A stretch of DNA of 33,342 nucleotides, from the NCBI GenBank assembly GCA_944383515.1, contig CALWPV010000114.1, forward strand, positions 1 to 33,342, in the 5' to 3' direction. This DNA comes from an uncultured Clostridia bacterium (GTDB lineage: Bacteria > Bacillota > Clostridia > Lachnospirales > Bianqueaceae). The position numbers and the translations under genes are program-made. Below the pieces are notes generated by a model. It made no database searches, was not told the origin of the DNA, and was given only the letters and a program-made list of their open reading frames with translations. Below are positions 1-10,320 of the stretch, piece after piece (within the stretch, counting starts at the first letter, position 1; each line of letters starts with the position of its first letter).

Positions 1-1392
1 CCTGATCAAGTGCAGGATGCTGAGCAAGAAGCAGGTTCCGACCAAGAGCAAGTTGCTGAGCAAGAACAGGATGCTGAGCAAGGGGAAGATTCTGAGCAGG
101 GACAGGGTCCTGACCAAGTGCAGGATACTGAGCAAGAAGCAGGTTCCGACCAAGAGCAAGGTGCGGATCAAGAGCAGGATGCTGAGCAAGGGGAAGATTC
201 TGAGCAGGAACAGGGGCCTGATCAAGTGCAGGATGCTGAGCAAGAAGCAGGTTCCGACCAAGAGCAAGTTGCTGAGCAAGAACAGGATGCTGAGCAAGGG
301 GAAGATTCTGAGCAGGGACAGGGGCCTGACCAAGTGCAAGATACTGAGCAAGAAGCAGGTTCCGACCAAGAGCAAAGTGCAGAACAAGAACAGGATGCTG
401 AGCAAGGGGAAGATTCTGAGCAGGGACAGGGTCCTGATCAAGTGCAGGATACTGAGCAAGAAGTAGGTTCTGGCCAAGAGCAAGGTGCGGATCAAGAACA
501 GGATGCTGAGCAAGGGGAAGATTCTGAGCAGGAACAGGGGCCTGATCAAGTGCAAGATACTGAGCAAGAAGCAGGTTCTGGCCAAGAGCAAGTTGCTGAG
601 CAAGGGGAAGATTCCGAGCAGGAACAGGGGCCTGACCAAGTGCAAGATACTGAGCAAGAAGCAGGTTCCGACCAAGAGCAAAGTGCAGAACAAGAACAGG
701 ATGCTGAGCAAGGGGAAGATTCCGATCAGGGACAAGATTCTGGCCAAGTGCAAGATACTAAGCAAGAAGCAGGTTCCGACCAAGAGCAAAGTGCAGATCA
801 AGAGCAGGCCGTTGATCAAGAACAAGATACGGATCAGGATCAAGGAAGTATAGGCCGAGAAAGCTTAGGCAGCCAGGACGCCGGCGAAGAACAAGACGAG
901 GGCGAAGCCGAAGATACAAGCCGAGAAAGCTTAGGCAGCCAGGACGCCGGCGAAGAACAAGACGAGGGCGAAGCCGAAGATACGGGCCGAGAAAGCCTAG
1001 GCAGCCAGGACGCCGGAGAAGAACAAGACGAAGGCGAAGCCGAAGATACGGGCCGAGAAAGCCTAGGCAGCCAGGATGCCGGAGAAGAACAAGACGAAGG
1101 CGAAAACGAAGATACGGGCCGAGAAAGCTTAGGCAGCCAGGACGCCGGCGAAGAACAAGACGAAGGCGAAAACGAAGAAACAGGCCGTGAAAGCCTGGGT
1201 AGCCAAGAGGCAGAAACCAATGAAGACCAAGAAGATCTTGCGGCCGACGATCAGTTAGGAGATTCAACAAGCGAAGGAGCAGAAGCAGAAAACGGACAAA
1301 ACACAGCCGGAATGGATTCGGGAGGCGCAGAAAGCGCAGATAGCGGCAGCAGTACGGGAGGAGCTTCTGCAGATCAAGATATGGGAATGTAA
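1..1392 (+). CDS. Acidic Gln/Glu/Asp-rich tandem-repeat protein, 3' part (5' end outside window)
   Basis: The reading frame is open from the first base of the window, so the true start lies upstream; a GTG at 10 is inside the repeat and is not a credible start. The visible part has about 460 residues. It holds eight 36-residue repeats (nt 4-849), then five full and one partial 22-residue repeats (nt 853-1209), then a Gly/Ser/Ala/Asp-rich tail ending DQDMGM. The 36-residue units contain about 13 Asp/Glu and 10 Gln, with almost no Lys or Arg and no Cys or aromatic residue, so the protein must be disordered or extended and strongly negative. No LPXTG sorting signal, membrane segment or other C-terminal anchor is seen. 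The next gene, a VirD4-like ATPase, begins 34 bp downstream on the same strand and is probably co-transcribed. The function is not recognised. A polyanionic linker, scaffold or nucleic-acid mimic are guesses only, and any N-terminal domain is not visible. Confidence 0.8.
   Translation, partial: PDQVQDAEQEAGSDQEQVAEQEQDAEQGEDSEQGQGPDQVQDTEQEAGSDQEQGADQEQDAEQGEDSEQEQGPDQVQDAEQEAGSDQEQVAEQEQDAEQGEDSEQGQGPDQVQDTEQEAGSDQEQSAEQEQDAEQGEDSEQGQGPDQVQDTEQEVGSGQEQGADQEQDAEQGEDSEQEQGPDQVQDTEQEAGSGQEQVAEQGEDSEQEQGPDQVQDTEQEAGSDQEQSAEQEQDAEQGEDSDQGQDSGQVQDTKQEAGSDQEQSADQEQAVDQEQDTDQDQGSIGRESLGSQDAGEEQDEGEAEDTSRESLGSQDAGEEQDEGEAEDTGRESLGSQDAGEEQDEGEAEDTGRESLGSQDAGEEQDEGENEDTGRESLGSQDAGEEQDEGENEETGRESLGSQEAETNEDQEDLAADDQLGDSTSEGAEAENGQNTAGMDSGGAESADSGSSTGGASADQDMGM
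4..849 (+). repeat. 108-bp (36-residue) coding tandem repeat, eight units
   Basis: Units start at 4, 112, 220, 328, 436, 544, 634 and 742. Each is 108 bp, except the one at 544, which is 90 bp. Each unit is itself six hexapeptides of the form xx-[A/S/G/P/T]-[D/E]-Q-[E/G/V], so the basic period is 18 bp. The short unit lacks exactly one hexapeptide. Units are nearly identical at DNA level, while the last one is the most diverged. This fits recent expansion and contraction by slippage or unequal recombination. Confidence 0.95.
853..1209 (+). repeat. 66-bp (22-residue) coding tandem repeat, five full units and a partial one
   Basis: Units start at 853, 919, 985, 1051, 1117 and 1183, the last breaking off after about nine residues. 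Each begins (G/S)RESLGSQ(D/E)A and continues with an EEQDEGE stretch. Variation is limited to a few positions, such as A/N in the GEAED/GENED part and silent changes (agcttaggc versus agcctaggc). Unlike the upstream repeat, each unit carries one Arg. This is a second, unrelated repeat type in the same protein. Confidence 0.95.
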
Positions 1393-1426
1393 AAATGGAC
1401 TGCATTGAGTAAAAAGGAGGATTAGT

Positions 1427-2755
1427 ATGCCAGGATTAGGAAGAAATCAAAAAATGGACGTCTTATTTGGCGACAGTTTAATGGTATCGGCGCCCAAGCT
1501 AGATCCCAGAGGGGCACGGTGTTTTTTAGAGGGCATTGATGCCACGAATACGCATGTAAGAATTCCTATTAGCGAAGACATGCTGGGAAGACATTTAATG
1601 TTGTTAGGCGGTATAGGAACGGGAAAAACCAATGCGTTTAGCCAAATCATTCGGCAGCTGCGCCAAACTATGCGCGAAGACGAGATTATGATTATTTTTG
1701 ATACGAAGGGAGATTTTTATCAGGAGTTCTACCAACCAGGCGACATTGTGATTAGCAATGACACAACAGCAACAGGAAGCGCGCGCACCGATTACTGGAA
1801 TATTTTTAATGAAATTTATGGCGGCGAACACATGATGGAAGGCGTTATTGAAATTGCTAAGTCATTATTTGCCGAAGCATGCAGAAAAACAAATCAAATT
1901 TTCTTCCCCAATGCTGCTCGTGATTTATTTATGGCTTCTATGGTGCATTTTATTCGGACAAGGCCAGCGAAAGAAAGGACCAATCGTGATTTGATCCGTT
2001 TTATCAATCAAACGCCAAGCAAGGAGTTTCGTGCCATGCTCAATCAGCATGCCGATTTTCGTGCCATGACCAGCTATATTGCCAGTGACGAGTCTGGCCA
2101 GACACAGGGTGTTATGTCCGAATTACTACAGGTTACCAGAGATATTTTTATCGGGAATTTTGCTAAACGCGGAACGCTGGGTATGCGGAACTTGGTGTAT
2201 CAAAAAGGTGGAAAAATTGTTTTTATTGAATATGACCTGAGTATTGGCGCCATGCTTTCCCCCGTTTATACTTTATTATTCGATCAGGCAATAAAAGAAG
2301 CACTGTGCAGAGAGCGCAGTTTGGGCAATGTCTATTTTATTACCGATGAATTTCGGCTGCTGCCCAACCTGCAGCACATCGATGACGCAGTTAACTTTGG
2401 CCGAAGCCTAGGCGTTAAGTTTATGATCGGCATTCAAAATGTAGAGCAAATTTATGAGATTTACGGCGCACAGCGCGCTAGAAGCATTATGTCAGGTTTT
2501 CTTTCCTCTTTTATGTTTCGCGTGACCGATGCTTCTTCCAAACAATATATTAAAGACGTCTTCGGTAAAAACCGCAAACTGGAGGGATATACGCCCATTG
2601 TTCAAGGAAGAGGTATGGTAGAAGAAAGCAGAGAAGGCAATGTGGTAGAAGACTGGAATATTTCTAGATTAAAAACAGGTCAGTCCATTATTGGTCTGCC
2701 CGGCCATCAGCCATTTCTTTTCCAGTTTGATCGTTATCAGGGTCGGGTTTCTTAG
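1427..2755 (+). CDS. VirD4/TraD-like P-loop ATPase (type IV coupling protein family), no membrane anchor
   Basis: The 442-residue protein starts at an ATG 6 bp after AAAAAGGAGG. A Walker A motif GGIGTGKT lies at residues 61-68 and a Walker B-like VYFITDEF with Asp307-Glu308. The region FIEYDLSIG, the late GIQNVEQIYEIYG and the C-terminal SIIGLPGHQPFLFQFDRY resemble the conjugative coupling protein (VirD4/TraD/TrwB, TraM-recognition) ATPases. Those proteins normally pump DNA or protein substrates through a type IV secretion channel and carry N-terminal membrane helices. No such helices are seen here, so this would be a soluble ATPase. No relaxase, VirB4, mating-pair gene or integrase is in the window, although the upstream side is cut off. 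The acidic repeat gene ends 34 bp before it, and a strong new promoter follows it, so it looks like the last gene of an operon. Family membership is fairly sure; the actual role is unknown. Confidence 0.8.
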   Translation: MPGLGRNQKMDVLFGDSLMVSAPKLDPRGARCFLEGIDATNTHVRIPISEDMLGRHLMLLGGIGTGKTNAFSQIIRQLRQTMREDEIMIIFDTKGDFYQEFYQPGDIVISNDTTATGSARTDYWNIFNEIYGGEHMMEGVIEIAKSLFAEACRKTNQIFFPNAARDLFMASMVHFIRTRPAKERTNRDLIRFINQTPSKEFRAMLNQHADFRAMTSYIASDESGQTQGVMSELLQVTRDIFIGNFAKRGTLGMRNLVYQKGGKIVFIEYDLSIGAMLSPVYTLLFDQAIKEALCRERSLGNVYFITDEFRLLPNLQHIDDAVNFGRSLGVKFMIGIQNVEQIYEIYGAQRARSIMSGFLSSFMFRVTDASSKQYIKDVFGKNRKLEGYTPIVQGRGMVEESREGNVVEDWNISRLKTGQSIIGLPGHQPFLFQFDRYQGRVS

Positions 2756-2817: not shown

Positions 2818-2846
2818 TTGACAAAAATAGGACTCCGTCTTACAAT
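2818..2846 (+). promoter_or_regulatory. Consensus promoter for the dehydratase activator fusion
   Basis: TTGACA at 2818-2823 and TACAAT at 2841-2846 are separated by exactly 17 bp. A perfect 8-bp palindrome TACTAGTA follows at 2851-2858 near the expected start of transcription and could be an operator. A second TATAAT at 2874-2879 has no good -35 box. The 5' leader would be about 70 nt. Confidence 0.75.
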
Positions 2847-2926
2847 ATATTACTAGTATACGAATCAAGTATGTATAATAAATAGGAAAGAACTGGATTG
2901 GATATTGTAGAACGGAGGTAGTGTAT

Positions 2927-5900
2927 TTGATCTATCGTGTTGGCTTAGATATAGGATCAACAACCGTAAAAATTGCGGTTTTAGACGAACAGGATCAGCT
3001 GGTTTACAGCGAATATAAACGGCATTTTGCCAATATTAAAGAAACAATTGCCCAGGTTGTGGGTAAGGCTTACGAAACCCTGCTCAAAGATCAGCAGGTA
3101 CGCATTAATGTAACGGGATCGGGCGGCCTTTCGGTTTCCAAATGGCTCTCCATTCCTTTTGTACAAGAAGTGATTGCTTCAACCAAAACGGTAGAAAAAC
3201 TGATTCCGCAGACCAATGTTGCGATTGAGCTGGGTGGAGAAGACGCTAAAATTACGTATTTCGACGGTTCTATTGAGCAGCGGATGAATGGTACCTGCGC
3301 CGGCGGAACCGGTGCGTTTATCGATCAAATGGCAGGACTGCTCATGACCGATGCCGCCGGTCTGGATAAGCTGGCAGAAGAGTCTACCACGATTTATCCG
3401 ATTGCTGCTCGGTGCGGCGTGTTTGCCAAAACGGATGTACAGCCGCTCATTAACGAAGGCGCGCCCAAAGAAGATATTGCCGCTTCCATTTTTCAGGCGG
3501 TTGTCAATCAAACTATTGCCGGCCTGGCCTGCGGCAAACCGATTCGAGGCAATATTGCCTTTCTTGGCGGCCCGCTCTTTTTCCTGCCGCAGCTGCGCCG
3601 CCGCTTTGTCGAAACCCTGCGTCTGACTCCGGAGCAGACCATCGTGCCCGAGAATTCGCAGCTTTTTGTCGCCATGGGCGCCGCCTATACGGCGGAAAAG
3701 GAAGCCATTACTGCCTTTAATGATATTTACGTATCTTCGCAAAAGCTGGAGGGCGTGGTTTCCAAAGAGATTCAGCGATTGGAACCTCTTTTTGAAAATG
3801 AACAGGCATATAATACGTTTTGCGAGCGGCACGATAAGGACAAGGTGGAGCGCGGCGATCTGGCAACGTATGAAGGGCCGGTGTATCTGGGCATTGACGC
3901 AGGCAGTACAACAACAAAAGCGGTGCTTATGGACGATAATTGCCGCCTTCTCTACACCTTTTACGGCAGCAATGAAGGTAGTCCGCTGGATAAAACTATG
4001 GAAATTTTAACCGATATTTATCAGCGGCTTCCGAAAAATGTATACATAGCAGGGTCAGCTTCAACCGGATACGGCGAAAAACTGGTTCAGACGGCGTACC
4101 ATATTGATATCGGCGAAATTGAAACAATGGCGCACTACAAAGCGGCGGAGTACTTTTTGCCGGGCGTGGAATTTATTTTAGACATCGGCGGGCAAGATAT
4201 GAAATGTATCCGGATTCGCGATGGCGTCATTCATGATATTTTGCTCAATGAAGCATGCTCCTCGGGGTGCGGTTCGTTTTTAGAGAATTTTGCGCATTCC
4301 CTGAAAATGGACATTGAAGATTTTGCCAACGAGGCTTTAGGAGCGCAGGAACCGGTTGATTTGGGATCTCGCTGTACGGTATTTATGAATAGCCGTGTCA
4401 AGCAGGCGCAGAAAGAAGGCGCCTCGGTGGGCGATATCTCGGCGGGTCTATCGTATTCGGTCATTAAAAATGCGTTGCAGAAGGTCATTAAGATTCGGGA
4501 TTATAGCGCCATGGGACAAAAGATTATTGTCCAAGGCGGAACCTTCTATAATGACGCCGTGCTCCGGGCGTTTGAGAAAATTACGGGAAAAGAGGTGGTG
4601 CGGCCGGATATTGCTGGTATTATGGGGGCTTACGGTGCGGCTCTTATTGCCAGAGAGCGTTTGGGCGCTCACCATAAAAGCAGCGTCCTGTCTGTGCAGG
4701 AGCTGGCTGATTTTGCGTATCGAACGTATCAGCAGCGTTGTGGCCGCTGCGCCAATAATTGCCTGCTAACGATCAATGTGTTTAGCGACGATCAGCTGGT
4801 ATCGGGCAACCGCTGCGAACGCGGGGTTGGCCTTTCTCCCAGCGAAACGCAGCAGCATTTGAACATTTACCGGTTCAAGTATTCGCGGCTATTTGCGCAC
4901 TATAAACCATTAAAAGAAGAAGAGGCTCCTCTGGGCGTAGTGGGAATTCCTAGGGCTCTTAATCAGTATGAGAATTATCCGTTCTGGTTTACGTTCTTTA
5001 CCAAGCTGGGCTTTTCGGTACGTCTGACGTCGAGAACCACGAAAAAAACGTTTGAGGCCGGCATGGAGACAATTCCGTCGGAATCGGTTTGTTATCCGGC
5101 TAAACTGGTGCACGGGCATATTATGGAGCTGATTCAGAAAAAAACGCCCTTTATCTTTTACCCGTGTGTTCCTTATGAACGAACGCTGCGGGAAGGAACG
5201 GACAATCATTATAACTGCCCCATTGTTACTTCATATCCTGAAACGATTAAAAATAATGTGGAGGCGCTGGAAGAAAACCATATTACGTTTATGAATCCGT
5301 TTCTGAACTTAAATGACGCGGGCAGCGTAAAGCAAGAGCTTTTGGCCGCGTTATCCGAAAAGTTCCCGGTGACCAAAGAGCAGATTGACGAGGCGGTCGA
5401 CGCGGCTTATGCGGAGCTGGAGGCGTATCGGCTGGAGGTTCAGCAAAAGGGCGAAGAAATTCTGAAAACGATGCGCGAGAAAAATATGCGCGGCATTGTA
5501 CTGGCGGGGCGTCCGTATCATGTAGACCCTGAAATTAACCATGGTCTTGAGAAAATTATTACGGAGCTCGGCATGGCCGTGCTTTCCGAAGACAGCGTGG
5601 CCCACTTATCGCAGCTGAAACGGCCCCTGCGTGTGCTCGATCAGTGGAGCTACCATTCTCGGTTGTATGACGCGGCCGAATTTGTCGGTAGTCAGCCGGA
5701 TTTAGAGCTGGTGCAGCTGGTATCTTTCGGCTGTGGAGTCGATGCGGTAACCGCCGATCAGGTTATGGAAATTTTGCATAGCCATGATAAAACCTATACG
5801 CTCATTAAAATCGACGAAGGAAGCAATTTGGGAGCCATTCGAATTCGTTTGCGCTCACTGAAAGCTTCTATTGAAGAAAAAGAGCGGAAAAACGGCGGTC

Positions 5901-7189
5901 AGCCCGTGTGTCCGTTAACAACGCCTTATAGCTTTGACAAAGTTATGTTTACAGAGGAGATGAAAAAGGAGTATACTATTTTAGTGCCGCAAATGGCGCC
6001 AATCCATTTTCGTCTGCTCAAACATGCGTTTGAAAAATCGGGATATCATATAGAAATTTTGCCAACCGTAGATCACCAGGCCATTGAAGAAGGGCTAAAA
6101 TATATCAATAACGACGCCTGCTACCCGACCATTTTGGTAGCCGGTCAGATGATGGCGGCTTTAAAAAGCGGAAAATATGACCTAAACAAGGTGGCGCTGG
6201 CTATTACCCAAACCGGAGGCGGCTGCCGCGCGTCCAACTATGTTGGATTTATTCGTAAAGCGCTGGCCGATGCGGGCATGGGGCAGATTCCGGTTATTGC
6301 GCTGAGCGCAAGTGGAATTGAAAAGCATCCGGGCTTTAAGATTACCCCCATGTTATTGCATAGAGTCATGGTAGCGCTGGTATACGGCGACGTACTCATG
6401 CGCCTGGTGCAGAGGCAGCGGCCCTATGAGGCAGAAAAAGGCAGTGCCGACGCGCTGTATGAAAAATGGCACGCCCGGGCGGCGCATAACGTGGAAAACG
6501 GAAGTTTACCAGAGTTTCACCGCAATATTCGCGGTATGGTGGGTGAGTTTGACCAGCTTCCCCTGCTTGACATTCAAAAGCCGCGCGTAGGCATTGTGGG
6601 CGAAATTTTAGTTAAATACCACCCCACCGGCAACAATGAGCTGGTTAAAGTGCTGGAGAGCGAAGGCGCCGAAGCCTATGTGCCCGATTTAATTGATTTC
6701 TTGCTTTACTGTTCTTTCGACAGCTTTTTCAAAGTAGATCACTATGGATTTAGCAAAACAGGAAAGTGGGTTAATAAAATCGTTATTTCTGTTATTGAAA
6801 AATATCGAGGCTACGCCATTAAGGTTTTGAATCAGCACAAACGCTTTGGAGCCCCCGGTTCCATTGAGCATAAATCCCATTACGTAGACGGCATTATGTC
6901 AACGGGTAATCAAACGGGAGAAGGCTGGCTTTTGACAGCGGAAATGGTAGAAATGATGGAGCATGGCATTAACAATATTGTGTGCGTACAGCCTTTCGCC
7001 TGCCTTCCGAATCATATTGTTGCCAAATCCATGATTAAACCCATTCGGAAGCGGTATCCCATGGCTAACATTGCCGCAGTCGATTATGACCCGGGCGCTT
7101 CCGAGGTGAATCAGCTGAACCGAATTAAACTTATGTTAGCGGTAGCTTTCAAAAATATGGAAAATTCTGACAGTATAGCGCAGGCTTGA
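2927..7189 (+). CDS. Giant 2-hydroxyacyl-CoA dehydratase activator fusion (BcrAD/BadFG type, HgdC-like)
   Basis: A TTG at 2927 is the preferred start, because GGAGG at 2914-2918 lies 8 bp before it but only 2 bp before the in-frame GTG at 2921. The product is about 1420 residues. Two ASKHA activator modules are visible: the first begins VGLDIGSTTVK, the second YLGIDAGSTTTK near residue 319. Each keeps two Cys 39 residues apart (C124/C163 and C444/C483), the spacing of the [4Fe-4S] cluster ligands known in Acidaminococcus HgdC. A Cys-rich RCGRCANNC segment near residue 605 and a DUF2229-like region follow. The last third resembles dehydratase-subunit (COG3580/3581-type) domains, with NNDACYPT and QTGGGCR. 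Known HgdC uses ATP to drive one-electron activation of a dehydratase. Such fusions are common in anaerobic Bacillota, but their substrate is mostly unknown. No separate dehydratase subunits (HgdA/HgdB) lie nearby. The gene is preceded by its own promoter. Confidence 0.93.
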   Translation: MIYRVGLDIGSTTVKIAVLDEQDQLVYSEYKRHFANIKETIAQVVGKAYETLLKDQQVRINVTGSGGLSVSKWLSIPFVQEVIASTKTVEKLIPQTNVAIELGGEDAKITYFDGSIEQRMNGTCAGGTGAFIDQMAGLLMTDAAGLDKLAEESTTIYPIAARCGVFAKTDVQPLINEGAPKEDIAASIFQAVVNQTIAGLACGKPIRGNIAFLGGPLFFLPQLRRRFVETLRLTPEQTIVPENSQLFVAMGAAYTAEKEAITAFNDIYVSSQKLEGVVSKEIQRLEPLFENEQAYNTFCERHDKDKVERGDLATYEGPVYLGIDAGSTTTKAVLMDDNCRLLYTFYGSNEGSPLDKTMEILTDIYQRLPKNVYIAGSASTGYGEKLVQTAYHIDIGEIETMAHYKAAEYFLPGVEFILDIGGQDMKCIRIRDGVIHDILLNEACSSGCGSFLENFAHSLKMDIEDFANEALGAQEPVDLGSRCTVFMNSRVKQAQKEGASVGDISAGLSYSVIKNALQKVIKIRDYSAMGQKIIVQGGTFYNDAVLRAFEKITGKEVVRPDIAGIMGAYGAALIARERLGAHHKSSVLSVQELADFAYRTYQQRCGRCANNCLLTINVFSDDQLVSGNRCERGVGLSPSETQQHLNIYRFKYSRLFAHYKPLKEEEAPLGVVGIPRALNQYENYPFWFTFFTKLGFSVRLTSRTTKKTFEAGMETIPSESVCYPAKLVHGHIMELIQKKTPFIFYPCVPYERTLREGTDNHYNCPIVTSYPETIKNNVEALEENHITFMNPFLNLNDAGSVKQELLAALSEKFPVTKEQIDEAVDAAYAELEAYRLEVQQKGEEILKTMREKNMRGIVLAGRPYHVDPEINHGLEKIITELGMAVLSEDSVAHLSQLKRPLRVLDQWSYHSRLYDAAEFVGSQPDLELVQLVSFGCGVDAVTADQVMEILHSHDKTYTLIKIDEGSNLGAIRIRLRSLKASIEEKERKNGGQPVCPLTTPYSFDKVMFTEEMKKEYTILVPQMAPIHFRLLKHAFEKSGYHIEILPTVDHQAIEEGLKYINNDACYPTILVAGQMMAALKSGKYDLNKVALAITQTGGGCRASNYVGFIRKALADAGMGQIPVIALSASGIEKHPGFKITPMLLHRVMVALVYGDVLMRLVQRQRPYEAEKGSADALYEKWHARAAHNVENGSLPEFHRNIRGMVGEFDQLPLLDIQKPRVGIVGEILVKYHPTGNNELVKVLESEGAEAYVPDLIDFLLYCSFDSFFKVDHYGFSKTGKWVNKIVISVIEKYRGYAIKVLNQHKRFGAPGSIEHKSHYVDGIMSTGNQTGEGWLLTAEMVEMMEHGINNIVCVQPFACLPNHIVAKSMIKPIRKRYPMANIAAVDYDPGASEVNQLNRIKLMLAVAFKNMENSDSIAQA

Positions 7190-7214
7190 TTGTTTCATAC
7201 TAAGCCCGTAACCG

Positions 7215-7244
7215 GATCTGCTGCTGCATCTGCTACAGCAGATC
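7215..7244 (+). other. Stem-loop between the activator fusion and the small Asn/Arg-rich gene
   Basis: GATCTGCTG at 7215-7223 pairs perfectly with CAGCAGATC at 7236-7244 around a 12-nt loop. No T-run follows, so it is not a typical intrinsic terminator. It sits 26 bp after the stop of the upstream gene and may be a processing or 3'-end structure. A GC-rich stretch of alternating CG at 7249-7279 follows directly. Confidence 0.5.
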
Positions 7245-7299
7245 TAAAACGCGCAGCATGCTTAACGCGCGCGGCGCGTAAATTGTAGGAGGCTTTACC

Positions 7300-7509
7300 A
7301 TGGAAAACAATCAAAGCAAGAATCGCCGTCAGAACCGCAACCAGAACGAGAATCTGAATCGTCAGAATCAGAATCGCAACCGCAATGAAAATCGGAACCA
7401 GAACGAATACGAGAATCGTAACGAAAACCGCAACGAGAATCGTAACGAAAACCGCAACGAGAATCGGAATGAAAACCGCAAGGATCACGACAGCGAATAT
7501 CGCTTCTAA
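7300..7509 (+). CDS. Small Asn/Arg/Glu/Gln-rich low-complexity protein (69 aa)
   Basis: An ATG lies 7 bp after TAGGAGG (7286-7292), and a terminator-like hairpin lies 33 bp after the stop. This makes a self-contained short gene credible. The protein is almost entirely Asn, Arg, Glu and Gln, with the tetrapeptide NENR repeated through its second half and a short tail DSEYRF. It has no hydrophobic core, Cys or signal peptide and must be disordered, with mixed charges. The NENR part is built from 24-bp DNA units in which synonymous codons alternate (aacgagaatcgt then aacgaaaaccgc), so it grew by duplication of an eight-residue block. I do not recognise it. RNA or DNA binding and a spore or coat role are only possibilities. 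Confidence 0.6.
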   Translation: MENNQSKNRRQNRNQNENLNRQNQNRNRNENRNQNEYENRNENRNENRNENRNENRNENRKDHDSEYRF

Positions 7510-7542
7510 GTCAGTTATGCCGCTGGCCTGACTGACAATGCC

Positions 7543-7575
7543 AAGGAGCCTTTCGTTTTTACGGAAGGCTCCTTT
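7543..7575 (+). terminator. Probable terminator after the small Asn/Arg-rich gene
   Basis: AAGGAGCCTTTCG pairs with CGGAAGGCTCCTT over 13 bp with one G-U pair, around a T-rich loop. The T-run after the stem is short (TTTC). A weaker inverted repeat GTCAGT/ACTGAC (7510-7536) lies just before it. Confidence 0.6.
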
Positions 7576-8162
7576 CATTGTGACATGAGTGTAGTTTTTC
7601 AACATTTATTATAGTGAGCGTAAATAATTTTAAAGTACTTCTTAAGGTGTTTTCCAGCCTATGGCCGTGCACTGAAAGAACTTCTTGCTAATCACTTGGC
7701 TGTTTTTTGTGCAAAGTTTCTTATACTAACTTGTCGTCCTGTGTGGGTAAGGTACGATTCTTTGAGTACCTGTGATACCGGTGACTTGACTACCTCTTCC
7801 GTTCCAAAATTCCCTAAAAAAAGAGAAGCAAACCGTCATAGGTAGAAATCCCCCTTATACAGTCTTATTGCCGGTCGGTTTAGGGATAGAACGTATCTCT
7901 CAGCCAAACAAAAAATAACTGTATAGGTGTAAAAACGGCCCATATTCTTCCAGCTTTGACATATTCAGAGAATTATCTTCCCCTTCGCAGCCAATTATAG
8001 CTATTTTGAGGGGGTATCCGCTATACCTGTTTTTCGTTTTATGAGCATAAATAGAAGGCAAAATATACCTACTGCTCAAACAACAAGAAGTCACAGGTAT
8101 CATTTCACAGCTTCCCAAACTTTCTCTCTTCTCGGCTGTCACACATGTATGGTAATCCTACT
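7576..8162. other. Long AT-rich gap without a convincing gene
   Basis: About 590 bp with stops in all frames at short spacing. The only longer frame (80 codons, minus strand, 7900-8142) starts with GTG without a Shine-Dalgarno sequence and matches nothing I know. The gap holds one isolated copy of the repeat core at 7733-7749, a small GGTAC/GTACC hairpin at 7751-7770, and GGTAT/ATACC hairpin-like arms near 8012-8026. It may be decayed sequence or an uncharacterised untranslated region. Confidence 0.5.
7733..7749 (+). repeat. Isolated core of the intergenic repeat family
   Basis: The 17-bp GTCGTCCTGTGTGGGTA matches 8240-8256 exactly and 14891-14907 exactly on the other strand. Here it lacks the adjacent CGCG palindrome, so it is a solo or truncated copy. 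Confidence 0.8.
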
Positions 8163-8265
8163 GTCCTGTGTGGGTATTATACCATAAGTTTGGCGCGTAA
8201 ACGCGCCAACTTAGCAAGAATCCTTTCAGGATTCTTGCGGTCGTCCTGTGTGGGTATTATACCAT
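8163..8265 (+). repeat. Intergenic repeat element, plus orientation (box A, CGCG palindrome, hairpin, box A)
   Basis: Box A (23 bp, starting GTCCTGTGTGGGTA and ending ATACCAT) occurs identically at 8163-8185 and 8243-8265, an 80-bp period. Between the copies lie the palindrome TTGGCGCGT-AA-ACGCGCCAA (8190-8209) and a perfect hairpin, GCAAGAATCCT-TTC-AGGATTCTTGC (8214-8238). The reverse complement of 14857-15023 has the same order of parts. The second box A ends 7 bp before the -35 of the HAD gene, so the element abuts a promoter. I do not recognise this family by name. Confidence 0.85.
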
Positions 8266-8272
8266 GAGGAGA

Positions 8273-8301
8273 TTGACAAGGCTTTCAGAGTTTGCTATAC
8301 T
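8273..8301 (+). promoter_or_regulatory. Promoter of the HAD phosphatase gene
   Basis: TTGACA at 8273-8278 and TATACT at 8296-8301 have 17-bp spacing, and the -10 is preceded by TGC (extended -10). The upstream in-frame ATG at 8264 overlaps this promoter, which supports the later start at 8333. Confidence 0.8.
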
Positions 8302-8332
8302 GATTCGAAAAATTAAGAAAGGAAGAAACGCT

Positions 8333-8983
8333 ATGGATAAACAGCTGTGTGCATTCCCTTGGAAAGGGGCTATTTTTGATCTGGATGGTACCATTATTGA
8401 CTCTATGGGCGTATGGCAACAAATTGACGAAGCCTTTTTAAAACGGCGTCATATTATGGTAGATCAGGATTACATAGAAGCGGTGAAAACCCTGCGGTAT
8501 GAAGACGCAGCGGTGTATACGATTGAGCGCTATCATCTTCCCGAAACCGTACAAGCAGTTATGGAGGAATGGGACGAGATGGCGCTCGATGCGTATCAGA
8601 ATCAAATTCCGTGCAAACCCGGAGCCAAAGAGTATATCCTGTATTTAAAAGAAAAAGGGGTCAAGCTGGCGCTGGCCACGGTGTCCCATGCCGGATTATC
8701 GCAGGCGGTTTTAAAGGCGCATGGTCTCGATATGGTTTTTGACGTTTGCACGGACGTATCTCAGGTATCCAGAGGGAAGGAAGAGCCAGATCTTTACCTT
8801 TTGGCCGCCGAGCGCATGGCGCTGCAGCCGGAACAATGCGTAGTCTTTGAAGATATTCTCATGGGAATCCAGGCGGCAAAACGCGCGGGATTTGTTACCT
8901 GCGGTATTCAGGACGCCTCGTCGGCGGCAGAGAAAGCGGCCATTCAGCAAACAGCCGATTTTTACTTGGAAAGTTTTCTCTAA
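8333..8983 (+). CDS. HAD superfamily phosphatase, beta-phosphoglucomutase-like subfamily
   Basis: The 216-residue protein starts at the ATG at 8333, with AAAGGAAG 7 bp upstream; longer in-frame starts lie in the promoter. All four HAD motifs are visible: FDLDGT with nucleophile Asp16 and Asp18, TVS near residues 116-118, Lys149 in SRGKEEPD, and the acidic VFEDI with Glu173-Asp174. A helical cap fits between motifs I and II. The length and the SRGKEEPD form fit subfamily IA enzymes that hydrolyse or isomerise small phosphorylated metabolites. The exact substrate cannot be read from sequence. It converges with the MATE gene on the other strand, with only 2 bp between the stop codons and no terminator hairpin visible between them, so the two transcripts may overlap. 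Confidence 0.9.
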   Translation: MDKQLCAFPWKGAIFDLDGTIIDSMGVWQQIDEAFLKRRHIMVDQDYIEAVKTLRYEDAAVYTIERYHLPETVQAVMEEWDEMALDAYQNQIPCKPGAKEYILYLKEKGVKLALATVSHAGLSQAVLKAHGLDMVFDVCTDVSQVSRGKEEPDLYLLAAERMALQPEQCVVFEDILMGIQAAKRAGFVTCGIQDASSAAEKAAIQQTADFYLESFL

Positions 8984-8985
8984 GC

Positions 8986-10320
8986 TTAATAGTGATAGCG
9001 GCTTTTTTGCGTTTTTAAAAAGTAACAAGACAGGAATAAACAAAGGGCTTCGGCAATCGGGATGGCTAGCCATATGCCGTCGCCGCCAATTTGATAGGGA
9101 AGAATGAGTAAAGCGGGCAGTATAAAGGCAAAGGTGCGGGCAAAGGAAATAATGGCCGATACCTTGCCATTCGACAGCGCGGTAAAAAAAGAAGAAGAAA
9201 AAATGTTAATGCCGGCAAATAAATAGCCAATGGAAAACAGTAAAAAGCCGCGAAGGGCAATGTCATATACAGGGGTGCCGGGCTGCGTGAATACGGCTAC
9301 AATCAGCTTAGCGCTAAAAAAAGGAAGCAGCGTCATTACCAAAGAAGCGATAAGAATAAACCGCAGACATAGCCGGAAAATTTGCTGCAGCTTAACTATA
9401 TTTTTCTCGCCGTAATTGTAGCTGACAATAGGAGCAACTCCGCTGGCAAATCCCATATAAATGGCTGTGAAAAGCGTTTGACAGTATAAGATCATAGAGA
9501 TAGCCGCTAAACCGTCTTCCCCCATTACATTTAGCGTTACCGTGTTAATGACAAGAAAAATGATACCCGTAGCCAAATTGGTTACCATTTCTGAACTTCC
9601 GTTGGTCATGGTATGTAAAATTACGGCGCCGCGAAGGCGGGGCCGCCTAAAACAAAGACCAGCGCGGTTACGGAAGAAAAAGATTAGCCCGGTTATAGCA
9701 GGAATTAAGTATCCAATCATAGTAGCCAGCGCCGCTCCGCTAATGCCCATATGAAACCAAACAATAAAAACGTAATCCAGAAGGGCGTTTGTAATTCCCG
9801 CGAACACAGCGGAATACAGACCCAGTTTGGGGCGACCGGCCGCCACGAAATAGCTCTGAAAAATAAGCTGCAGCATATACGCGGGAAATCCCAATAAGTT
9901 AACGGCAAAATAATCACGGCAATAGGGATAGAGCCGCGTATTGGCGCCCATAAGCTGAAGGATTGGCCGCAAAGCGGCAAAACCGATCAGCGACACGAGA
10001 AGGGCGGCGCCAAGGGCTAGCAGCGTGAGCAGCGACAAATCTTCACAAGCTTCTTGTAAGCGCCCCTCGCCCATTTTTTGGGCAATAACAGCGCTGCCTC
10101 CGGCGCCGAACATGGTGCCGAGTCCAATAATCAGGTAAATGACAGGGTATACAATATTGGTTGCGGAAATGGCGTCAGCACCAACAAAGCGGGAGACGAA
10201 TATTCCGTCGACCATGGAATAGATAGAAGTAAAAATCATCATGATAATAGTAGGAACCGAAAAACGGAGCAGCGATATCATGGTTATGGGCCTAGCTAAC
10301 TGGTTTTGTACGCTGGTCAT
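8986..10320 (-). CDS. MATE family multidrug/sodium antiporter
   Basis: The 444-residue membrane protein has about twelve hydrophobic segments in two halves. It has MATE features such as FSVPTIIMMIFTSIYSMVDGIFVSRFVG at the N terminus (split here only by reading) and GFASGVAPIVSYNYGEKN in the second half. MATE proteins export drugs or metabolites using an Na+ or H+ gradient. The start ATG directly follows GAGAAAGG with almost no spacer, which is unusual. An in-frame TGA nine bases before the ATG rules out a start further upstream, so a weak start or the internal Met14 remain options. It is divergent from metY and convergent with the HAD gene. A second MATE lies at 27527, in a different phylogenetic-looking form; substrate unknown. 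Confidence 0.92.
   Translation of the reverse strand: MTSVQNQLARPITMISLLRFSVPTIIMMIFTSIYSMVDGIFVSRFVGADAISATNIVYPVIYLIIGLGTMFGAGGSAVIAQKMGEGRLQEACEDLSLLTLLALGAALLVSLIGFAALRPILQLMGANTRLYPYCRDYFAVNLLGFPAYMLQLIFQSYFVAAGRPKLGLYSAVFAGITNALLDYVFIVWFHMGISGAALATMIGYLIPAITGLIFFFRNRAGLCFRRPRLRGAVILHTMTNGSSEMVTNLATGIIFLVINTVTLNVMGEDGLAAISMILYCQTLFTAIYMGFASGVAPIVSYNYGEKNIVKLQQIFRLCLRFILIASLVMTLLPFFSAKLIVAVFTQPGTPVYDIALRGFLLFSIGYLFAGINIFSSSFFTALSNGKVSAIISFARTFAFILPALLILPYQIGGDGIWLAIPIAEALCLFLSCYFLKTQKSRYHY

Follow-up and report, generated by a model that had tools for sequence, protein, structure and literature searches.

Why would an ATPase of the conjugative coupling family, free of membrane helices, stand directly behind a huge acidic repeat protein? 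The question is raised by the first 2,755 nucleotides of a contig of 33,342 nucleotides (C114 of genome G000, GenBank CALWPV010000114.1) from an uncultured Clostridia bacterium of the Bianqueaceae, whose genome assembly (GCA_944383515.1) measures 2.34 Mb and is 98% complete. We analysed this entire contig, which we call the window. With a probability of about 60%, we read the ATPase as part of a polymorphic toxin-immunity cassette that has its own soluble VirD4-like motor, in which the motor would recognise the C-terminal tail of the toxin and c1, a membrane protein, would be its partner. The gene content and order of this cassette, its putative toxin and immunity families and its tail motif are well supported by sequence comparison; outward transport and bacterial targets we infer.

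The acidic open reading frame (ORF) at 1-1392 lacks its 5′ end, because the window begins where the contig does. Its product of 463 amino acids contains 98 Glu, 66 Asp and 94 Gln residues, with just 7 Lys or Arg (net charge −157), and its repeat structure far exceeds chance. This composition, and the ATPase start 34 bp after the stop codon, agree with the original prediction, which took the ORF for a protein of its own. The reading frames indicate that it belongs instead to a larger toxin-like protein (the effector), of which it encodes the C-terminal tail, the N-terminal half lying on another contig, C131. The sole other genomic site of the window repeat is in the final 190 bases of C131, and the copy there (L084:5227-5373) is 95% identical across 147 bp, with strand and frame as in the window. 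C131 terminates in 'GGGGCCTGAT', followed at 5373 by the Illumina adapter AGATCGGAAGAGC, and the window opens with 'CCTGATCAAG'; both contig ends are within the repeat, and therefore the assembly break is placed there. The C131 ORF that enters the repeat in frame at its C-terminus carries an Endonuclea_NS_2 domain (1.5e-19). The genes of C131 all lie on one strand, with intergenic gaps of 3-82 bp, in the order zinc-ribbon/C-type-lectin membrane protein, zinc-ribbon TcaA-like membrane protein, c1 (346 amino acids, a zinc-ribbon GRAM/PH-like membrane protein), a 162-residue protein and the nuclease-domain ORF. The join between the two contigs rests on the common repeat, strand and frame and on the recurrent gene order, with no spanning read; it is plausible because relatives repeat the gene order and the c1 of C131 resembles c1 elsewhere, with 34-42% identity to c1 of nearly all aligned loci and 24% to the most distant one (L067). 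Bases 5373-5415 of C131 are adapter (AGATCGGAAGAGC..., translated as RSEERRVGKECRSR), a contamination at the repeat break.

The ATPase has its best Pfam match in TrwB_AAD_bind (PF10412, 1.2e-47), followed by T4SS-DNA_transf (3.5e-15) and TraG-D_C (1e-13), and its nearest solved structure is TrwB (PDB match 4e-14). With the type IV coupling proteins (T4CPs; VirD4, TrwB, TraD, TraG) it shares a RecA-like motor domain with Walker A and B motifs and the families PF10412, PF02534 and PF12696. Unlike them, it has no N-terminal transmembrane anchor, as its most hydrophobic 19-residue segment scores 1.27, below the hydropathy threshold of 1.6, and no relaxase or VirB partner; its fixed neighbours are a toxin, an immunity protein and a PH/transmembrane protein. 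By motor homology the ATPase is of the coupling-protein lineage, and departs from it in two defining traits, the anchor and the type IV secretion system (T4SS) partners. Most of its relatives likewise begin at or near the motor domain. The Pfam and hydropathy scans here confirm what had been read from the letters, a P-loop ATPase of the coupling family without membrane helices.

A genome scan recovered 55 loci encoding this ATPase, 48-64% identical over most of the protein; in an alignment of 49 members, identity to the window protein is 47-63%. Most of the loci come from gut Clostridia, and Cloacimonadota, Anaerolineaceae and Bathycorpusculum are each the label of one record. The neighbourhood survey that the original prediction had suggested gave recurrent partners: c1, a variable effector and an immunity-like gene recur around the ATPase in about 55 loci. 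Such conservation bears on the simplest explanation of the locus, in which a conjugative element decayed and left its coupling protein, as an orphan or remnant, beside an unrelated repeat protein. The motor is indeed related to coupling proteins, and the window holds no other conjugation gene, as had been noted at first sight. Nevertheless, we find this explanation hardly credible, since gene order is conserved and the Walker motifs are invariant in about 50 loci (many Clostridia, plus the Cloacimonadota and Anaerolineaceae records), and the effector stop and the ATPase start are mostly 9-20 bp apart.

The gene directly 5′ of the ATPase differs by locus, and encodes Tox-GHH, GH-E or NS_2 nucleases, a DUF6782-like metallopeptidase, a ParB-like domain (a label given by residue pattern alone) or one of several unnamed domains. 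The gene before the effector changes with the toxin: SUKH-1 stands next to Tox-GHH (L051, L078, L081), and the family of IFS, the immunity factor of streptococcal NADase, stands next to an effector domain named c12, with the L035 protein exceeding the curated cut-off. The 162-residue protein of the window genome is related to the proteins of L054 and L035 (5.7e-18 and 2.4e-10), and the c12 domains of these loci are in turn relatives of the N-terminus of the window effector; because of both relations, the window pair is predicted to be a toxin-immunity pair of the same kind as in L035, L037 and L054. Variable toxin domains thus precede one ATPase family, with an adjacent immunity-family gene whose inhibitory role is predicted. 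An N-terminal hydrophobic stretch occurs in 1 of 44 effectors, signal peptides being otherwise lacking, and Pfam gave no match to the WXG100 or LXG domains of type VII toxins among 39 effectors. NCBIfam provided no useful name for c1, the effectors or the immunity proteins. The cassette resembles the polymorphic toxin systems described in 2012 (PMC3482391) in its variable toxins (Tox-GHH, GH-E, NS_2) beside matching immunity genes (SUKH, IFS) and in having constant parts suited to trafficking, whereas its polarity is reversed with respect to the canonical order, with the toxin N-terminal and the constant delivery mark a C-terminal tail. The terms 'VirD4' and 'TraG' are absent from the text of that paper.

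What is conserved behind the interchangeable toxin domain is, as far as sequences tell, a low-complexity tail with a short C-terminal motif, and not acidity. C-terminal entropy is lower than N-terminal entropy in 31 of 32 complete effectors; tails are acidic in 31 of 44, the remainder being rich in Gly, Ser, Gln or Lys. The polyanion was therefore rejected as the key feature, and of the original proposal, a DNA- or protein-handling system other than conjugation built around a huge polyanion, the first part stands and the partnership with the polyanion does not. Tails end, for example, in GMGM, GYGY or SYSY, and in the window in DMGM; among the 44 effectors, the last residue is Y or M in 24, the second last G or S in 26, the third last M or Y in 27 and the fourth last G or S in 31. 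The motif [MY][GS][MY]-COOH, counted on the same loci on which it was defined, closes 16 of the 44 effectors; of 698 other ORFs in these loci it closes just 2, each of them a second effector that lies upstream. Tail type (Met, Tyr, Arg or other) follows the ATPase tree, with 11 changes against 21.6 in shuffles, none of which was as low; for Met versus Tyr tails there are 3 changes against 10.4 (minimum 7 among 300 shuffles). Toxin domains, on the other hand, cross tail types: the ParB-like domains of L042 (tail DMSM) and L040 (GIGY) are 55% identical, and metallopeptidase-like and c12 domains likewise occur across tail types. The concordance of tail type with the ATPase tree, to which toxin domains do not keep, is most simply read as a need for the tail to match the motor, the toxin being free to vary; the tail is presumably the recognition signal of the motor.

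Some loci hold more than one tail. In L078 (6880-8361) and L081 (4474-5655) a second tail-bearing protein, ending in SYSY, lies upstream of the first, and one motor may serve several effectors there. In L038 a protein of 1293 amino acids (5607-9488) is adjacent to one of 84 (9501-9755), with the Met-type ends SGQSM and SGMGM; the short protein could serve either as a further substrate or as a tail carrier reduced to the minimum.

The most constant partner is c1: nearly every core locus for which enough sequence is available has it 1-4 genes 5′ of the ATPase, as do L043 and L056, where tblastn located it. In a class sample of 391 genomes the ATPase is present in 7, c1 in 5 and both in 4 (Fisher p 2e-7), and the fifth c1 genome, without the ATPase, holds a broken cassette with a transposase-like gene after c2 and c1. 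The predicted structure of c1 (predicted local distance difference test score, pLDDT, 85.8; predicted template-modelling score 0.74) consists of an N-terminal zinc ribbon followed by a PH-like domain into which membrane helices are inserted as a bundle. Across this insertion the PH-like domain, from 60 to 315, aligns over 108 residues with the bacterial PH domain 3dcx (Z 9.1); structural matches of the inserted bundle are common helical arrangements, to which we give no interpretation, and a Foldseek search with c1 returned nothing below E 0.001. Conservation in c1 is highest in the VTNKR/FRA strands and in the C-terminal helix ELGxMIDDIQTxGDxAIxKW, which plausibly form a docking surface for the ATPase ring, c1 being its proposed membrane partner. 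A second zinc-ribbon membrane protein, c2, is present at 27 of 54 loci. The second gene 3′ of the ATPase encodes an N-acetylmuramoyl-L-alanine amidase in L076, where Amidase_3 was confirmed, and a homologue of it in L040, L048 and L053.

Over the two contigs, the cassette would read lectin-type zinc-ribbon protein, TcaA-like protein, c1, immunity-like protein, effector (NS_2 ... DMGM) and ATPase. In the mechanism that we propose, the immunity protein would hold the toxin inactive inside the producer, and the ATPase ring would grip the disordered tail of the effector via its end motif and dock on c1 at the membrane. ATP hydrolysis would then drive the effector outward across the membrane, toward other bacteria, and the zinc-ribbon proteins with outside domains (lectin, TcaA-like), together with wall amidases, may aid passage through the wall or contact with the target. 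The more specific proposal of a minimal Gram-positive toxin export, in which a soluble VirD4-like ring and c1 move motor-matched tailed toxins without a VirB channel, is tentative, and we place it a little below an even chance.

Several points weigh against our interpretation. An envelope channel was not identified and c1 alone may form none, and secretion and killing are predictions from gene content. Besides the common origin of the tail motif and its counts, five loci fetched later gave a looser motif in two (QGYSY, GFGL), the others ending in GYSE, TEL and KGH; c1 was found in three of the five. Effector and ATPase are adjacent, so that linked inheritance may partly explain the concordance of tail and ATPase. 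Finally, for several effectors no toxin fold can be recognised at the N-terminus, and modelling of this domain in its window-type form (c12, from L037) gave an unusable result, with a pLDDT of 44.

Extending the locus upstream, which the original prediction had proposed as its check, gave conserved partners on C131 and neither relaxase nor mating-pair genes. An ordinary coupling protein of a conjugative element was rejected, as the upstream contig holds a toxin-immunity cassette, and the doubt about conjugation voiced at the outset is borne out. A family scan found no relaxase on C131, nor did one appear in about 50 neighbourhoods, where it was sought only via recurrent neighbour families, and a VirB4 comparison gave no homologue among the cassette neighbours. 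One carrier genome, G073, has a clear VirB4 (8.6e-159) and other carriers give weak matches; G127 and G279, both 99% complete, give no AAA_10/VirB4 match. PF12846 was discarded as a VirB4 marker, being unspecific, with weak FtsK-like matches (by size and strength) in most genomes. The window genome, whose other conjugation genes were judged by family search, encodes two more VirD4-like proteins, C123:1988-3142 (L002) and C123:13600-14703 (L001), with no VirB4 family match there, and its best AAA_10/VirB4 match is its C123 VirD4.

These results also bear on the possibility that the cassette is an accessory module, with the ATPase as a soluble VirD4-like adaptor that would feed tailed toxins to the T4SS of a resident conjugative element. 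Coupling-protein ancestry and the two proteins on C123 would fit such a role, as would the VirD4-recruited toxins of Gram-negative T4SSs, for which interbacterial delivery is noted in PMC12857230. It is nonetheless improbable, given that a clear VirB4 is found in few carriers, that G127, G279 and the window genome give the results above, that c1 is specific to the cassette and that the neighbours include no VirB4 homologue.

The cassette is rare and patchy, like exchanged conflict genes, and this distribution, together with matches of the ATPase to HerA-type models and to mad8 in PADLOC (52 bits), leads to the main rival of a toxin-export cassette, namely intracellular defence. Here a HerA-like motor would sense phage or plasmid DNA and unleash an attached nuclease or other effector in an abortive response, with the small upstream gene as antitoxin and c1 as membrane anchor of the complex. 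A diverged ATPase branch (L073, L075), flanked by Hsp70-like genes, DO-GTPase2 and GAP1-N2, lies within the conflict system of the latter two, a class for which we know of no link to a VirD4-like motor. The cassette is linked to the DO-GTPase/GAP1-N2 systems of Kaur et al. 2020 (PMC7159879) in that such a system contains this diverged paralogue in L073 and L075, whereas the core loci have neither DO-GTPase nor GAP1 among their recurrent neighbours. We consider defence unlikely, because the TrwB_AAD_bind match (163 bits) is far above any HerA or mad8 model, the HerA matches being partial and at most 29 bits. The effectors and their partners, moreover, belong to polymorphic-toxin and immunity families (Tox-GHH with SUKH, IFS) and vary, instead of being a fixed nuclease or SIR2-type partner, and PADLOC gives no match for the partners scanned. 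Exposed zinc-ribbon membrane proteins and wall amidases are also ill-suited to a purely cytoplasmic role, and to our knowledge the partners of HerA in defence carry no motor-matched C-terminal motif. A viral origin was rejected as well, since the candidate viral contigs contain no gene for a relative of the ATPase.

The export proposed here has parallels. In T4SSs of the Xanthomonas type, a VirD4-family motor acts with a C-terminal recognition region on the toxins, through a full T4SS, in Gram-negative bacteria and with a folded recognition domain of about 100 residues. The cassette, in contrast, has a low-complexity tail, a four-residue end motif and no VirB genes, and is found in Clostridia. 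The 89K T4SS of Streptococcus suis, with genes for VirB1, B3, B4, B6, B8 and VirD4, exports SspA-1, as cited in PMC12857230; it is similar in being VirD4-linked protein export in a Gram-positive, and differs from the cassette, which has toxin-immunity pairs and in which none of this VirB set was found. The same T4SS review, of 2025, treats effector translocation in Gram-positives as a long-standing open question. In the open-licence PMC literature, a scope that leaves subscription papers and preprints aside, no published description of the cassette was found. The cassette couples a motor of the coupling-protein family to predicted toxins and immunity proteins in gut Clostridia, and points to c1 and a short C-terminal tag. 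A motor-tail code is suggested by the way in which tail type goes with the motor whereas toxins are exchanged. If our reading is right, the cassette would be an undescribed route by which some gut Clostridia deploy interchangeable toxins against neighbours, apparently via an end tag. The features of the window are collected in Table 1.

Table 1 Coordinates of the effector tail, the ATPase and the right cassette edge in the window
Feature	Position	Strand	Basis or remark
Effector (toxin-like), C-terminal part with low-complexity Q/E/D tail	1..1392	+	ORF without start in the window
Tail array, 108-bp (36-residue) unit	1..808	+	Tandem Repeats Finder: 1-604, 5.6 copies, 92%; longer-period rows reach 808
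Tail array, 66-bp (22-residue) unit, GRESLGSQDAGEEQDEGEAEDT	853..1205	+	Tandem Repeats Finder: 5.3 copies, 93%
C-terminal motif D-M-G-M-stop, proposed motor-recognition signal	1378..1392	+	Class [GSD]-[MY]-[GS]-[MY]-COOH in relatives
Ribosome-binding site AAGGAGG of the ATPase	1414..1420	+	Direct sequence reading
Soluble VirD4/TrwB-like ATPase, 442 residues	1427..2755	+	Pfam PF10412, PF02534, PF12696; no transmembrane segment
Walker A GGIGTGKT, residues 61-68	1607..1630	+	Glycines and lysine (near-)invariant in the 49-member alignment
Walker B VYFITDE, residues 302-308	2330..2350	+	D307 and E308 invariant in the 49-member alignment
Promoter-like site (11/12) before the next, unrelated gene (2921-7189); right cassette edge	2818..2846	+	

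The DNA pattern of the D-M-G-M-stop motif has its sole genome-wide match in the window copy. In a sister species the right-hand neighbour of the cassette is 86% identical, with an unrelated gene at the cassette position and no ATPase upstream. In G294 (L118, contig C1, near 561304-562311), c2 and c1 are followed by transposase-like and restriction-modification genes and the effector and ATPase are gone, so that this locus is a remnant of the cassette.

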